Of a stretch of DNA of 64,000 nt, positions 28,545-32,285 are shown one piece after another. Position numbers and translations under genes: made by a program. Origin of the DNA: Streptomyces sp. NBC_01723 (lineage in GTDB: Bacteria; Actinomycetota; Actinomycetes; Streptomycetales; Streptomycetaceae); the NCBI RefSeq assembly GCF_036246005.1, contig NZ_CP109171.1:5878001-5942000 (forward strand). Direction: 5' to 3'. The notes beneath the pieces are model-generated. The model searched no databases. It worked only from the letters and a program-made list of their open reading frames with translations, and was not told where the DNA came from. Each line of letters begins with the position of its first letter. Positions within the stretch are counted from its first letter, which is position 1.

Positions 28545-29496
28545 ATGCCCACGTCCGCGCGCCGCCGAAGAGCGACGCACGTTCTGCTCCTCGGCGCCGG
28601 CTGCTCCTGAGCGGTTGCGGTCTCCACTCCTCCGGGCCGGTTTCCGCGGACGACGGCCCGCTCACCCTCGGGTTCGTCAACGGCGGCGACGGTACCTTCC
28701 ACACCTGCCTGCAACGGTCCGTGGAGATCACGGCCAGGAACAACTTCGCGCGGATGGTCACCGCCAACTCCGAACAGGACGCGGCGACCGAGCTGTCCAA
28801 CATCGCCGGCATGATCGAGCGCGAGGTCGACGCGATCATCCTTCGGACCGTCGACACGGACGCGCTGAAGCGGGATGTCGAGCAGGCCCGGAAGGCGCAC
28901 GTCCCCGTCCTCCTGACCCCCGTGAGCACCGATCCGGACGACCTCCTGGGAGCGGTCGTCGTCGGCCTGGAGGCCGTCGGCCGGCTGGACGCCCGCTGGG
29001 TCGCAGACGACGCGGCCGGGACGTGCAGGTCGGCATCGTCGCGGGCGCCCCCGGCGCCGCCTCCGACCTGCTCGTCCGCGGCTTCACCGACGCCCTGCCG
29101 GACAACGCCGAAGTCGTCGCCGAGCAGCCCGGCAGGTTCGACGCCGGGACGGCCGGGGAGGTCGCCGGCAGGAGGGCCCGGGCCCATCCCGGCCTCCACT
29201 ACGCCTTCGTCGCCAACGAGCAGATGGCCTTCGCCGTCCGCGAGGCCTTCGACGCGGCCGGCGCCGACCGGGTCAGGATCGTGACGGTCAACGGCACCGA
29301 CGAGGCCCTGGCCGCGCTGAAGGACGGCCGGTTCTCCGCGACGGTCTCCAACTCGGCGGGAAACACCGGCGAACTGGCCGTCCGCAACACCATCGCCCTG
29401 CTGCGCGGCAGGGCGGCCGAGAGGCACACGCCGATCCGCCTCGTCACCAAGGGCAACGCGGACACAGCCCTCCTGTACTGCCCCGTCGACTACTGA
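28545..29496 (+). pseudogene. sugar-type solute-binding lipoprotein, broken by two frameshifts
   Basis: Three frames together code for a periplasmic-binding protein of the ribose/galactose type. ATG 28545 opens a signal peptide (basic RRRR, then THVLLLGAG) that stops at TGA 28608. One extra base near 28601 would restore LLLSGCG, a lipobox. That second frame runs through LTLGFVNGGDGTFHTCLQ and FARMVTANSEQDAATELSNIAGMI to about 29015. The reading then has to shift again to continue as VQVGIVAGAPGAASDLLVRGF to the stop at 29496. No permease or ATPase gene is adjacent, so it was already an orphan. Sequencing error at two separate sites is the alternative. Confidence 0.75.
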
Positions 29497-29888
29497 ACCG
29501 CGGCGGTCACCGGCAGCCCCGCCGCGCGCCAGGCCTGGAAGCCGCCGACCAGATCGGTGGCCCGGTGCAGTCCGAGCCGGTGCAGCGACTCCGCCGCCAG
29601 ACTGGAGGCGTAGCCCTCGTTGCACACCACGACGACCCGCACGTCGTGGTCCGTGGCCTCGGGGAGCCGGTGGCTGCCTCGCGGGTCCAGCCGCCACTCC
29701 AGCTCGTTCCGCTCGACCACCAGGGCGCCGGGGATCACGCCGTCCCGCTCCCGCAGGGCGGCGTACCGGATGTCCACCAGCAGCGCCGTACCGGCCTCGG
29801 CGGCGTCGTACGCCTCGTCCGGAGCGATCCGCCGGTACCCGGCGCGCACCCGCTCCAGCAGCTCGTCCACCCCGGTCGGCTCGCTCAC
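29490..29888 (-). CDS. rhodanese-like sulfurtransferase
   Basis: A 132-residue single-domain rhodanese. The active-site loop is CNEGYASS, with the catalytic Cys after VRVVVV, and the first half has the family pattern ALLVDIRYAALRERDGVIPGALVVERNELEWRLDP. It moves sulfur from a thiosulfate- or persulfide-type donor to thiols or cyanide. It overlaps the preceding dioxygenase gene by 4 bp, so the two work together in thiol/persulfide metabolism. Its 3' end touches the end of the convergent pseudogene. Confidence 0.88.
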   Translation of the reverse strand: MSEPTGVDELLERVRAGYRRIAPDEAYDAAEAGTALLVDIRYAALRERDGVIPGALVVERNELEWRLDPRGSHRLPEATDHDVRVVVVCNEGYASSLAAESLHRLGLHRATDLVGGFQAWRAAGLPVTAAVQ

Positions 29889-30424
29889 TGCCAGTCCTCC
29901 GGGCGCTCGACCTGCTCCAGGCGCAGGGTCTGCCCACCTCGGCTGTAGCGGCGGATCTGCGGCAGGGGAGGGTAGTAGGCGTGCACGGAGACCGCGTGCC
30001 GGTCGGGCGACTCATTGAGCACCTCGTGCACGTGGTGCCGGCCGAAGGCACGCCCCCGGCCGGCCGGGAGCCGGCGTTCCCGGTCCACGTCGTCGGCGAG
30101 TTCCAGGGTCTTCCAGCCGTCGGTGGGCAGGCGGGCGGCGAGCGCGTTCTCCTTGAGCTCGCCCGCGGCGGTCACGAAGGCACCCACGGACTCGGCGTGG
30201 TCGTGCCAGCCGGTGCCCGTGCCGGGCGGCCAGCCGATCAGCCACGCCTCGCTGCCACCGGGCCCTTCCAGCCGCACCCAGGTGCGGCCCTCGGGGTCGA
30301 GCGGCAGGGAGGCGATCAGCGCGGCGTCGGCGGCGGTGCGCCGGGCGAAGTCGAGGAGTTCGGCCTGCGTGGGAGCGGCCGGAGCCGCGGCGCGGGAGGC
30401 CGCGGCAGGGGAGGAGACAGACAC
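29885..30424 (-). CDS. cysteine dioxygenase-family thiol dioxygenase
   Basis: A 179-residue cupin enzyme with metal ligands in GWHDHAESVGAFVTAAGELKEN and the second motif HHVHEVLNESPDRHAVSVHAYYPPL. This is the bacterial cysteine dioxygenase pattern, which oxidises cysteine (or 3-mercaptopropionate) to the sulfinate. I chose GTG 30424 (VSSPAAASR) because AGGA lies 8 nt upstream. The open frame continues to 30535, but that part overlaps the cysteine-rich leader ORF and has no ribosome site. It forms an operon with the rhodanese gene. Confidence 0.85.
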   Translation of the reverse strand: MSVSSPAAASRAAAPAAPTQAELLDFARRTAADAALIASLPLDPEGRTWVRLEGPGGSEAWLIGWPPGTGTGWHDHAESVGAFVTAAGELKENALAARLPTDGWKTLELADDVDRERRLPAGRGRAFGRHHVHEVLNESPDRHAVSVHAYYPPLPQIRRYSRGGQTLRLEQVERPEDWQ

Positions 30425-30441
30425 GGATACCGTCCTGGAAG

Positions 30442-30487
30442 TTCGCGAGGGGGCGCGCGGTGAGCCGTCGGACGCGGCGCGCGCGAA
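30442..30487 (-). promoter_or_regulatory. hairpin between leader ORF and thiol dioxygenase gene
   Basis: On the minus strand TTCGCG (30487-30482) pairs with CGCGAA (30447-30442), and inside it GCGCGC stretches at 30482-30477 and 30458-30453 also pair, with a loop of about 20 nt. It lies between the leader stop and the dioxygenase ribosome site, as an attenuator or anti-ribosome-binding element would. Confidence 0.45.
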
Positions 30488-30503
30488 GGAGAGGGAAGCG
30501 AAT

Positions 30504-30551
30504 TCAGCAGGACGGCCGACACACGCAGCCCGCATAGCGGACGAGGTCCAT
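30504..30551 (-). CDS. cysteine-rich 15-residue leader peptide upstream of the thiol dioxygenase
   Basis: ATG 30551 opens the short frame MDLVRYAGCVCRPSC, ending in TGA at 30506-30504. A perfect GGAGGG (minus strand, 30562-30557) stands 5 nt before the ATG. Three of the last seven residues are cysteine. It lies 80 nt upstream of the cysteine dioxygenase start with a GC-rich hairpin between. Known parallel: cysteine-coding leader ORFs act as attenuators of sulfur genes in mycobacteria. I infer that ribosome stalling at the Cys codons senses charged tRNA-Cys and sets expression of dioxygenase and rhodanese. Confidence 0.65.
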   Translation of the reverse strand: MDLVRYAGCVCRPSC

Positions 30552-30597
30552 ATGGACCCTCCGCCACAGGCACACGCAGGTGTCGGTCACGATCCGG

Positions 30598-30626
30598 AGT
30601 AGACCATGATGGTGCGGACCGGTCAA
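30598..30626 (-). promoter_or_regulatory. likely promoter of leader-dioxygenase-rhodanese operon
   Basis: On the minus strand TTGACC (30626-30621) and TCTACT (30603-30598) are 17 bp apart. Transcription would begin near 30591, about 40 nt before the leader ATG. The -35 is the second of two GTTGAC direct repeats with an 11-bp period, which may be a regulator site. Confidence 0.5.
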
Positions 30627-30659
30627 CTCACCGTCAACATGCGGACGACGACCGCCCGG

Positions 30660-32285
30660 TCAGCGGGAACCTGCCGAAGCTCCCGCGCCCCTCTCCTGTT
30701 CCGCGGCACCCGCCGTGACCGACGGCCCGCCCAGCGTCGCCTCCGCGGCCGCGTACAGATCGGCCGGGCGCACCCCGGCCAGGGCCGTGACCAGATGACC
30801 GTCCGGCCGCACCAGCAGCACCGTGTGCGCGGCGGCACCGGGATAGCTCTCGGCGACCAGCAGCTCGGCCCGGTGGGGCAGCGCCGTCACCGCCGCCGCC
30901 AGCCGGGGCATGATCCCGGCCGTCACCCAGTGCTTGCGCTCCCACACTCCCGTGCCCGGCGCGATCAGCACCACCAGGAGCGCCCCGCGCCCGAGCCGGT
31001 CGCGCAGTTGTACGAAGGTGCCGTCCTCCGCAGTGACCCGCACATCGGTGACGGGCGACCCGGGCGCCGTGCCGACCTCCGCCGCTCCGGCCAGGTCCGC
31101 GGGGGCGAGGGGCGAGCCGGCGTACGTTCCCGGCGCACCCAGCGCGCCGCGCCCCAGGTGACCGTCGGCGAGCAGCGTGTCGTGGCCGCGGGACGATCCG
31201 GGGACGTACGCCCGCAGTCCGCCGCCCCCGCGCAGCAGCGGGAGCACCTGGTCGGCGGCGCGCAGCCGCGCGGCGATCGCCGTGCGCCGCTCGGTCTGGT
31301 AGCTGTCGAGCAGTGCCTCGCGCGGCCCGTGATGCCAGGCCAGGGCGAGTTTCCAGGCGAGGTTGTCGGCGTCCAGCAACCCCTCCTCCAAACCCTGTGT
31401 GCCCAGGGCACCCAGCAGGTGGGCGGCGTCCCCGGCGAGGAGCACGCGGCCCACCCGCCAGCGCCGGGCCAGCCTGTGGTGGACGGTGTGCACGCCGGTG
31501 TCGAGCAGCTCGTAGGCCGCGGGCGCGCCGTCGGACCAGCCGGTCAGGGTCTCGCGGACGCGGTTCACCAGCAGCTCGGGCGTGACCAGGTCCTTGCCGG
31601 GCGGCAGCAGCCAGTCCAGACGCCAGACGCCGTCCGGCAGGGGGCGGGCCACGACCTCGCCGGCCGACGGGCCGGACGTCCGCCACGGCGGCATCCGGTG
31701 CAGCAACGCCTGGTCGGCCCAGGGGAGTTCGGTGCGCAGCGCGGCGACGGCGTATCGTTCCACCGCCGTACGGCCGGGGAAGCGGATGTCCTGGAGCTTG
31801 CGGACGGTGGAGCGGGGGCCGTCGCAGCCGACCAGGTAACTGCCGCGCCACCAGGTGCCGGCCGGGCCGCGGGTGTGCGCGGTGACGCCCGACTTCTCCT
31901 GCTCGACGCCGTCCAGGCGGCTGTCCACCGCCACCTTGACCAGGGACTCGCGGGCGAGTGCCGTGCGCAGGACCTCGGTCAGCTCGTGCTGGGCGATGTG
32001 CAGCGGCGGGGGCTCGTCCTCGCCGAACTCGACGTCGCGGATCACCTGCTTGCGCCGCACGGACCGCCATCCGGCCCAACGGGATCCCAGCCCGGCCAGC
32101 GGTGTGCCGGTGAGCCGCTCGACGAGCGCGACGGCTTCCGGGCGCAGCACGACGGTGCGGGCGGGGCGGGGTTCGTCCTTGCCGGGGCCCTCGTCGAGGA
32201 CGACGCAGGGCACCTCCTGCCGCGCCAGCGCCAGGGCGAGCGTGAGCCCGACGGGCCCCGCTCCGGTGATGATCACCGGGTCCAC
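30660..32285 (-). CDS. FAD-dependent aromatic monooxygenase (PheA/TetX family)
   Basis: A 541-residue flavoprotein hydroxylase. It has the dinucleotide-binding motif IITGAGPVGLTLALALA at the N terminus, the second motif LVGCDGPRSTVRK, and the third motif GRVLLAGDAAHLLGALGTQGLEEGLLDADNLAWKLA. A thioredoxin-like C-terminal domain follows, as in phenol and polyketide hydroxylases. The substrate is unknown. GTG 32285 is preferred. The longer open frame from TTG 32375 would begin inside the predicted promoter, whose -10 lies at 32375-32370. The gene stands alone. Confidence 0.85.
   Translation of the reverse strand: MDPVIITGAGPVGLTLALALARQEVPCVVLDEGPGKDEPRPARTVVLRPEAVALVERLTGTPLAGLGSRWAGWRSVRRKQVIRDVEFGEDEPPPLHIAQHELTEVLRTALARESLVKVAVDSRLDGVEQEKSGVTAHTRGPAGTWWRGSYLVGCDGPRSTVRKLQDIRFPGRTAVERYAVAALRTELPWADQALLHRMPPWRTSGPSAGEVVARPLPDGVWRLDWLLPPGKDLVTPELLVNRVRETLTGWSDGAPAAYELLDTGVHTVHHRLARRWRVGRVLLAGDAAHLLGALGTQGLEEGLLDADNLAWKLALAWHHGPREALLDSYQTERRTAIAARLRAADQVLPLLRGGGGLRAYVPGSSRGHDTLLADGHLGRGALGAPGTYAGSPLAPADLAGAAEVGTAPGSPVTDVRVTAEDGTFVQLRDRLGRGALLVVLIAPGTGVWERKHWVTAGIMPRLAAAVTALPHRAELLVAESYPGAAAHTVLLVRPDGHLVTALAGVRPADLYAAAEATLGGPSVTAGAAEQERGAGASAGSR

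Follow-up and report, generated by a model that had tools for sequence, protein, structure and literature searches.

The locus raises the question of why a gene whose product degrades cysteine should be preceded by a short cysteine-coding open-reading frame (ORF) and, if the one controls the other, which state of the cysteine supply turns the enzyme on. The arrangement lies on the minus strand of a 64,000-nucleotide stretch of Streptomyces sp. NBC_01723 (the window). An earlier note, made from the sequence alone, had described there a promoter-like pair (TTGACC, 17 bp, TCTACT), GGAGGG as a Shine-Dalgarno (SD) sequence, a 15-codon ORF with three Cys codons among its last seven and a GC-rich hairpin, all ahead of a cysteine dioxygenase (CDO)-rhodanese operon, and had proposed attenuation in which excess cysteine raises CDO. 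The hexamers and their spacing, GGAGGG, the ORF with its three Cys codons and the order of the genes are all present as described (Table 1).

Table 1 Coordinates of the leader, its pairing partners and the genes they precede.
Feature	Position	Strand	Evidence or remark
-35 hexamer TTGACC	30621..30626	minus	Major-base frequency 0.87, 102 loci
-10 hexamer TCTACT	30598..30603	minus	Major-base frequency 0.86 across 102 loci; 17-nt spacer to -35
Leader ORF, 28 codons VTDTCVCLWRRVHMDLVRYAGCVCRPSC + TGA (30506-30504)	30504..30590	minus	Probable leaderless start GTG 30590-30588
15-codon ATG ORF of the earlier note MDLVRYAGCVCRPSC, inner part of the leader	30504..30551	minus	ATG 30551; sequence reading
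GGAGGG ahead of the inner ATG	30557..30562	minus	Sequence reading
Cys22 codon TGC, extra Cys typical of CDO leaders	30525..30527	minus	Cys in 106/108 loci
Key Cys24 codon TGT, last NF042934 match position (residue 24)	30519..30521	minus	TGT in 108/108
Cys28 codon TGC	30507..30509	minus	Cys in 100/108 loci
Anti-SD CCGTCCTG within codons 26-28	30508..30515	minus	Pairs with CDO SD
TTCGC, outer part of the sequestering stem, 3' of the leader stop codon	30498..30502	minus	Comparison of 108 loci
GCGAA, pairs with 30498-30502	30442..30446	minus	Folding and 108-locus comparison
CDO Shine-Dalgarno CAGGACGG	30430..30437	minus	First base 13-14 nt before start codon in 97/108
Cysteine dioxygenase (CDO), 179 aa, start GTG 30424	29885..30424	minus	PF05995 E 3.1e-51; sequence match to CDO structures
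Rhodanese-domain protein, 4-nt overlap with CDO stop	29490..29888	minus	PF00581 E 1.1e-14
Leaderless-looking poly-Cys ORF before the second CDO	L219:356-451 (G000:C1:3166055-3166150)		Ends RARCSCCRCSSC

Start of the leader and identity of its target

The promoter-like pair of the earlier note gains support from comparison, as both hexamers are conserved across 102 loci, above the spacer between them (major-base frequency 0.65) and the sequence upstream (0.52), though a strict sigma-70 scan of 30380-30680 did not score the pair (0 found). The -10 box of relatives is often TGTACT, and TATACT in L147 and L148. GTG 30590 lies 7 nt past the -10 box in the window, and codon 1 is GTG or ATG in 102/108 loci (72 GTG, 30 ATG), the exceptions being five loci with one extra in-frame codon and L038, which is without the start part of the leader. 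The inner ATG is kept in 100/108 loci and is CTG or CTC in six and GTG in two; GGAGGG is still present in the six loci with CTG/CTC, and is therefore probably retained because it encodes RRV and not because it acts as an SD. Because an in-frame GTG/ATG is conserved after the -10 box while the inner ATG varies, the best reading is a transcript that is probably leaderless, starting at or next to GTG 30590, with a leader that is probably 28 codons long. The 15-codon ORF as first drawn, begun at its ATG with GGAGGG as SD, gave way on this point: with the ATG replaced in 8/108 loci and the upstream GTG/ATG frame kept, the ATG is ruled out as a necessary start.

The window's enzyme keeps an arginine, R51 (in WVRL), at a position occupied by Ser in the solved chain 8qfr_A aligned with it. 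In classical CDO this arginine binds the Cys carboxylate, and we therefore read the leader's target as a likely true cysteine dioxygenase.

Conservation of the leader peptide and its family

The comparison covers 108 loci: the window, the best 80 of 517 confirmed genome places encoding CDO (79/80 titled Streptomyces) and a further 27 CDO loci from the same genus, more divergent and drawn from a search across the order. These are counts of loci, not species, among which related loci are non-independent and the diverged ones may come from species already in the named set. The leader was found at 80/80 of the named loci (best 80 of 517) and at 27/27 of the diverged ones, so that the earlier note's expectation of a conserved short ORF among Streptomyces CDO loci was borne out. 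Likewise, the leader, again with TGT as its key Cys codon, is present at 30/30 loci from the order-wide search, a group that includes the window's own, lies otherwise outside the 108-locus set and may overlap it in species. Two loci of a different family in the order have a related ORF in which GCLCC stands close to the end.

Six leaders are out of register and 102 of the 108 could be aligned, representing 74 distinct sequences. Mean major-base frequency at the leader's codon positions is 0.93-0.97 in these 102 loci, whereas the sequence upstream of the promoter has 0.52 and the intergenic stretch 0.49; the earlier note had named conserved flanks around an unconserved ORF as the case against itself, and the flanks are the less conserved part. 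Third positions reach 0.93 in the leader (102 loci), compared with 0.85 over a 55-codon segment of CDO (76 of those loci). Distinct single-base variants in codons 9-28 cover 21 of the 42 possible synonymous changes and 22 of the 131 possible non-synonymous ones (N/S ratio 0.34), the ratio in codons 2-8 being 0.56. The value for codons 9-28 suggests that the peptide is probably translated and that residues beyond its Cys codons matter. Such strong conservation at all codon positions would also be seen were the ORF kept as a small protein or as a DNA or RNA binding site, without translational control of CDO, an explanation that we regard as very improbable: the GTG/ATG swaps, the in-frame one-codon insertions and the excess of synonymous change all point to translation, the peptide motif recurs ahead of many sulfur genes, and the fold within the leader has no covariation signal beyond column shuffles (97.0% paired vs 96.9%). 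The large hairpin within the leader is stable in the window, where its fold is equalled by 2 of 300 synonymous recodings, and less stable by this measure at three other loci, where 22, 38 and 112 of 300 recodings equal it.

The leader passes the NCBIfam model NF042934 (cis_reg_atten, "putative leader peptide") with 37.2 bits at a cut-off of 27, and its 28-codon form scores 34.3 bits. The 181-nt leader region also folds better than all 200 of its shuffles (z -3.87), and because of this fold, the NF042934 score and the conservation at both sets of loci, the elements are beyond chance; a search of the window with Rfam at the gathering threshold gave 0 matches. NF042934 was detected in 7/149 genomes and 3/118 genera of a phylum sample, and in 26/26 Streptomyces genomes. 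The first long ORF after each of 20 sampled family leaders, picked mechanically, encodes sulfite reductase, a ThiS-family protein, a PLP-dependent enzyme, rhodanese, a sodium:dicarboxylate-type symporter, solute-binding proteins, a transport permease, sulfatases, a luciferase-like monooxygenase or an FMN reductase, with a response-regulator domain, a GST-domain protein and three ORFs without a match as exceptions; the ThiS-family and PLP-dependent (cysteine-synthase-like) pair we read as CysO-CysM. The CDO leader resembles this family in its score, in the motif R-x-H-[VIM]-D-L-x-R-x5-C with its spacing (the family pattern required D and R/K, so that the tallies for D -9 and R -6 are in part built in) and in its position before sulfur genes. 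It departs from the family in drawing an anti-SD from its own last codons, in its extra Cys22 and in having a Cys-degrading target. Its C-terminal residues also resemble those of the Cys-rich Ms5788A leader family NF042933, at a score far below the cut-off (20.2 bits vs 45); with the 28-codon form, the NF042933 profile gave no match at E 0.01.

Codon usage singles out one of the cysteines. In the CDO leaders Cys24 is an invariant TGT, and Cys22 is Ser or Arg in 2/108 loci. We compared 66 NF042934 leaders from ten Streptomyces genomes in all, seven from the window's own genome (six above the cut-off, one below) and 59 from nine others, these being among the matches listed for 25 other Streptomyces genomes. 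At the key Cys position, 63 leaders have TGT, two have TGC and one has lost the Cys (53, 2 and 1 in the 56 non-CDO leaders), against 12/69 TGT among the remaining Cys codons counted in the 66 leaders and 24/258 in background Cys codons, taken from 57 window ORFs picked mechanically (at least 150 codons, G+C3 >0.90). TGT at this position was not selected for, because the search used a peptide profile. Of the 66 family leaders, 10 have the extra Cys at the Cys22 position, and every one of these is of the RYAGC (CDO) type. One family leader, L191, lies ahead of a gene for a GST-domain protein and has Ser (AGT) in place of the key Cys; it may be a sensor that has decayed or been re-purposed.

Pairing of the leader tail with the CDO Shine-Dalgarno sequence

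The claim of a hairpin between ORF and CDO stands in part. A G+C-rich stretch does precede CDO, the leader stop and the CDO start being 79 nt apart, but the important hairpin is formed by the leader tail CCGTCCTG with the SD CAGGACGG. The leader's last codons CCGUCCUG form 8/8 pairs with the CDO SD in 87/108 loci and at least 7/8 in 101/108, whereas slid controls, in which the partner was moved by 1-4 bases, gave 0 full pairings and at most 3 loci with at least 7 pairs. The outer stem is TCGC/GCGA in 99 of the 108 loci, TCCGC/GCGA in five and TCGT/ACGA in one, the upstream partner being absent by the pattern used in three. Compensating changes occur in L136 and L137 (UUCCUG opposite CAGGAA) and in L143 (UCGU with ACGA), and in L131 AGGUCCUG is matched by an extra copy of CAGGACCU. 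Against the pairing, L133, L138 and L140 carry the tail change of L136 and L137 with an unchanged SD; L039 forms 5/8 pairs only, and L028, L041, L057, L074, L079 and L131 form 6/8 with the proximal SD. Taken as a reading of the compared sequences, a leader with sequestration of the SD is well supported, and with it the earlier note's view of a translated Cys leader with attenuator anatomy ahead of the CDO-rhodanese operon.

Stalled ribosomes were modelled by masking a footprint assumed to extend 15 nt to each side of the first P-site base. Mean SD accessibility over the 108 loci rises from 0.05 in the free RNA to 0.08 when the A-site is at Cys22 and to 0.24 when it is at Cys24, where it exceeds the free value in 100/108 loci and lies above 0.5 in only 2/108 (0.13 in the window); a scan of A-site positions in 27 of the 108 loci placed the step at codons 23-24. 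The mean cost of opening the stretch from SD to start (102 loci) is 15.2 kcal/mol free, 13.0 at C22, 10.4 at C24, 10.6 at C28 and 10.5 at the stop, the corresponding values in the window being 16.3, 13.4, 9.8, 10.1 and 10.4 kcal/mol. A Cys24 stall would thus cut the modelled opening cost by about 5 kcal/mol. As both cost and accessibility differ between the two positions, the greatest help is predicted from a stall at Cys24 and less from one at Cys22. Stall-driven release of the SD is in this sense a computed prediction. Full release is ruled out in the folding model, in which the SD is mostly paired elsewhere in every state at nearly all loci.

For 57 of the 66 family leaders a downstream start could be assigned, though some starts were mis-picked (e.g. 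L174). With a stall at the key Cys, 15 of these leaders gained more than 0.1 in SD accessibility and 3 lost some. The 15 comprise six CDO leaders, four rhodanese leaders and five others, and the CDO leaders L196 and L213 gained less than 0.1. An SD-masking logic common to all family leaders was not seen, most being without such an effect, and the direction of the CDO response is therefore not transferable from other family leaders. The rhodanese leaders L163, L195, L201, L218 and L006 show some gain in SD accessibility with a ribosome at the key Cys.

In a mycobacterial leader, a stalled ribosome reportedly frees the hidden SD of the next gene. The CDO leader is like the mycobacterial polycysteine leaderless attenuators (Canestrari et al. 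2020, as cited in PMC13236596 and PMC9094748) in having a Cys-coding ORF and a sequestered SD of the next gene, here computed from the pairing above; a leaderless transcript, if the CDO leader has one, would be a further likeness. It is unlike them in that its cysteines are non-adjacent (C-x-C-x3-C; Cys22, Cys24 and Cys28) with no poly-Cys run, and in its single invariant UGU with a conserved peptide motif upstream. Titles and abstract openings, mostly of papers outside subscription journals, held no prior description of the Streptomyces CDO leader or its target.

Direction of the response

Our preferred explanation, which we consider probable by a moderate measure, is that a Cys-sensing leader peptide controls translation of CDO-rhodanese, with low Cys-tRNA causing a stall that turns CDO on. 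Transcription would begin at or next to GTG 30590, and a ribosome would read the 28 codons to the end RYAGCVCRPSC-stop. With Cys-tRNA plentiful it would complete the leader and depart, upon which CCGUCCUG and UUCGC would pair with GCGAA...CAGGACGG, hiding the CDO SD and keeping CDO off. With charged Cys-tRNA scarce it would stall, chiefly at the rare UGU codon 24, mask the anti-SD and so let CDO be translated. CDO would then join the low-Cys set of sulfur-uptake and Cys-synthesis genes, where our guess at its role is sulfite for sulfur salvage or disulfide cleavage. Because the leader tail is complementary to the CDO SD, a ribosome at Cys24, Cys28 or the stop should help to free the SD, which makes low Cys the better-supported "on" state, as in biosynthetic attenuators. 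Against this explanation, Cys22, which is read first, opens the SD much less in the folding model when ribosomes stall there, and a Cys-degrading enzyme switched on at low Cys is physiologically odd, the more so because related leaders precede genes that acquire or make cysteine. The same oddity is a directly testable paradox, and the leader supplies a conserved, mutable SD/anti-SD pair.

Published expression data bear on two CDO genes. The genome holds a second CDO-family gene (PF05995 E 1.1e-20), with a whiB gene (PF02467 E 4.3e-27) on one side and cofD on the other. The ORF upstream of it has an adjacent-Cys run, RCSCCRCSSC, and an ATG 7 nt past TGTCCT, which has TTGACA 17 nt upstream; with its Met omitted it matched no NCBIfam model at E 0.01. 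Among weaker CDO-family places, 11 of 29 were examined, and a Cys-rich or HxDF-type upstream ORF is present in seven (L149, L150, L151, L155-L158) and absent in four. As the second CDO adjoins whiB and whiB is SCO3034 (per part of PMC4255298), SCO3035 is probably its S. coelicolor counterpart, by synteny. SCO5772 is a putative cysteine dioxygenase whose S. venezuelae homologue is induced by nitrogen starvation in a GlnR-dependent manner, according to a passage of PMC3087709. Under H2O2, SCO5772 mRNA rose 8.0-fold and SCO3035 mRNA 6.5-fold in S. coelicolor, together with cysI, cysM, cysA, cysH and metNIQ; in the portion of PMC4991794 that gives these values both genes are tabulated as "hypothetical protein" and the response is assigned to HbpS-SenS-SenR. 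On Cys-rich feather medium, cdo1 and cdo2 of Streptomyces SCUT-3 rose 50.2-fold and 8.3-fold (excerpt of PMC7181669), figures that we use as a pair. The two data sets point opposite ways on Cys supply, and both experiments varied more than cysteine: the H2O2 data agree with low Cys as the "on" state, with the reservations that H2O2 differs from Cys starvation and that the values are mRNA, and the feather induction argues otherwise. The GlnR dependence of the S. venezuelae homologue is a further point against our preferred explanation. A Cys leader is a possible reason for the presence of SCO5772 and SCO3035 in the S. coelicolor oxidative-stress response.

The feather induction fits the earlier note, in which excess cysteine raises CDO, opposite to a biosynthetic attenuator. 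Here ribosomes at the stop codon, or a TnaC-like nascent-peptide arrest, would mask the anti-SD when Cys is plentiful, while starved ribosomes would halt at Cys22, short of the anti-SD, and leave CDO off. This would suit a catabolic gene; in the model the SD is opened as readily by a ribosome at the stop as by one at C24 (10.5 vs 10.4 kcal/mol), and less by one at C22; CDO leaders typically carry the extra Cys22; and codons 9-28 are constrained at the amino-acid level. A tnaC-type leader is a conserved peptide before an amino-acid-degrading catabolic operon, and the CDO leader is like it in this arrangement and unlike it in its predicted direction, arrest at the stop codon being hypothetical here. 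We nevertheless think the excess-cysteine direction unlikely: the SD-complementary tail predicts the reverse, both CDO genes (SCO3035 by synteny) are induced with Cys-synthesis genes in the H2O2 data of PMC4991794, as far as that portion goes, and Cys22 is replaceable where Cys24 is invariant, its UGU suiting a slow-decoding sensor.

That the published change is in mRNA (same portion of PMC4991794) would also fit Rho-dependent transcriptional attenuation, in which a stalled ribosome shields a C-rich stretch past the leader stop from Rho and the SD pairing plays a secondary part. By eye, the loci inspected look rich in pyrimidines just past the stop, and Rho has been proposed, from a weak prediction, for mycobacterial cys leaders (in part of PMC1262725). 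The poor conservation of the stretch between the stems (0.49), set against the conserved SD/anti-SD pairing, makes this mechanism improbable in our judgement, and 0 terminator-like sites were found in 30380-30680, so that an intrinsic terminator between leader and CDO was likewise not detected.

Within the sample of ten Streptomyces genomes, one codon (UGU) and one peptide motif stand out as the candidate sensor shared by several sulfur operons. A tentative and rather doubtful extension is that NF042934 leaders are Streptomyces-wide, nascent-chain-assisted Cys sensors, in which R-x-H-[VIM]-D-L-x-R would sit in the exit tunnel while the ribosome waits at the single rare UGU and so reads the wobble-decoded Cys supply; the Cys22 of CDO leaders, two codons before the opening point, would make the response two-sided, on at mild shortage and off at severe shortage as ribosomes stop short of the anti-SD. 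Elsewhere, the S. lividans "metL" leader before metNIQ, listed in Table 4 of PMC8079986 and called methionine-dependent in that part of the paper, ends RCMCRRMCAF; given its Cys codons, it could also be read as a cysteine leader.
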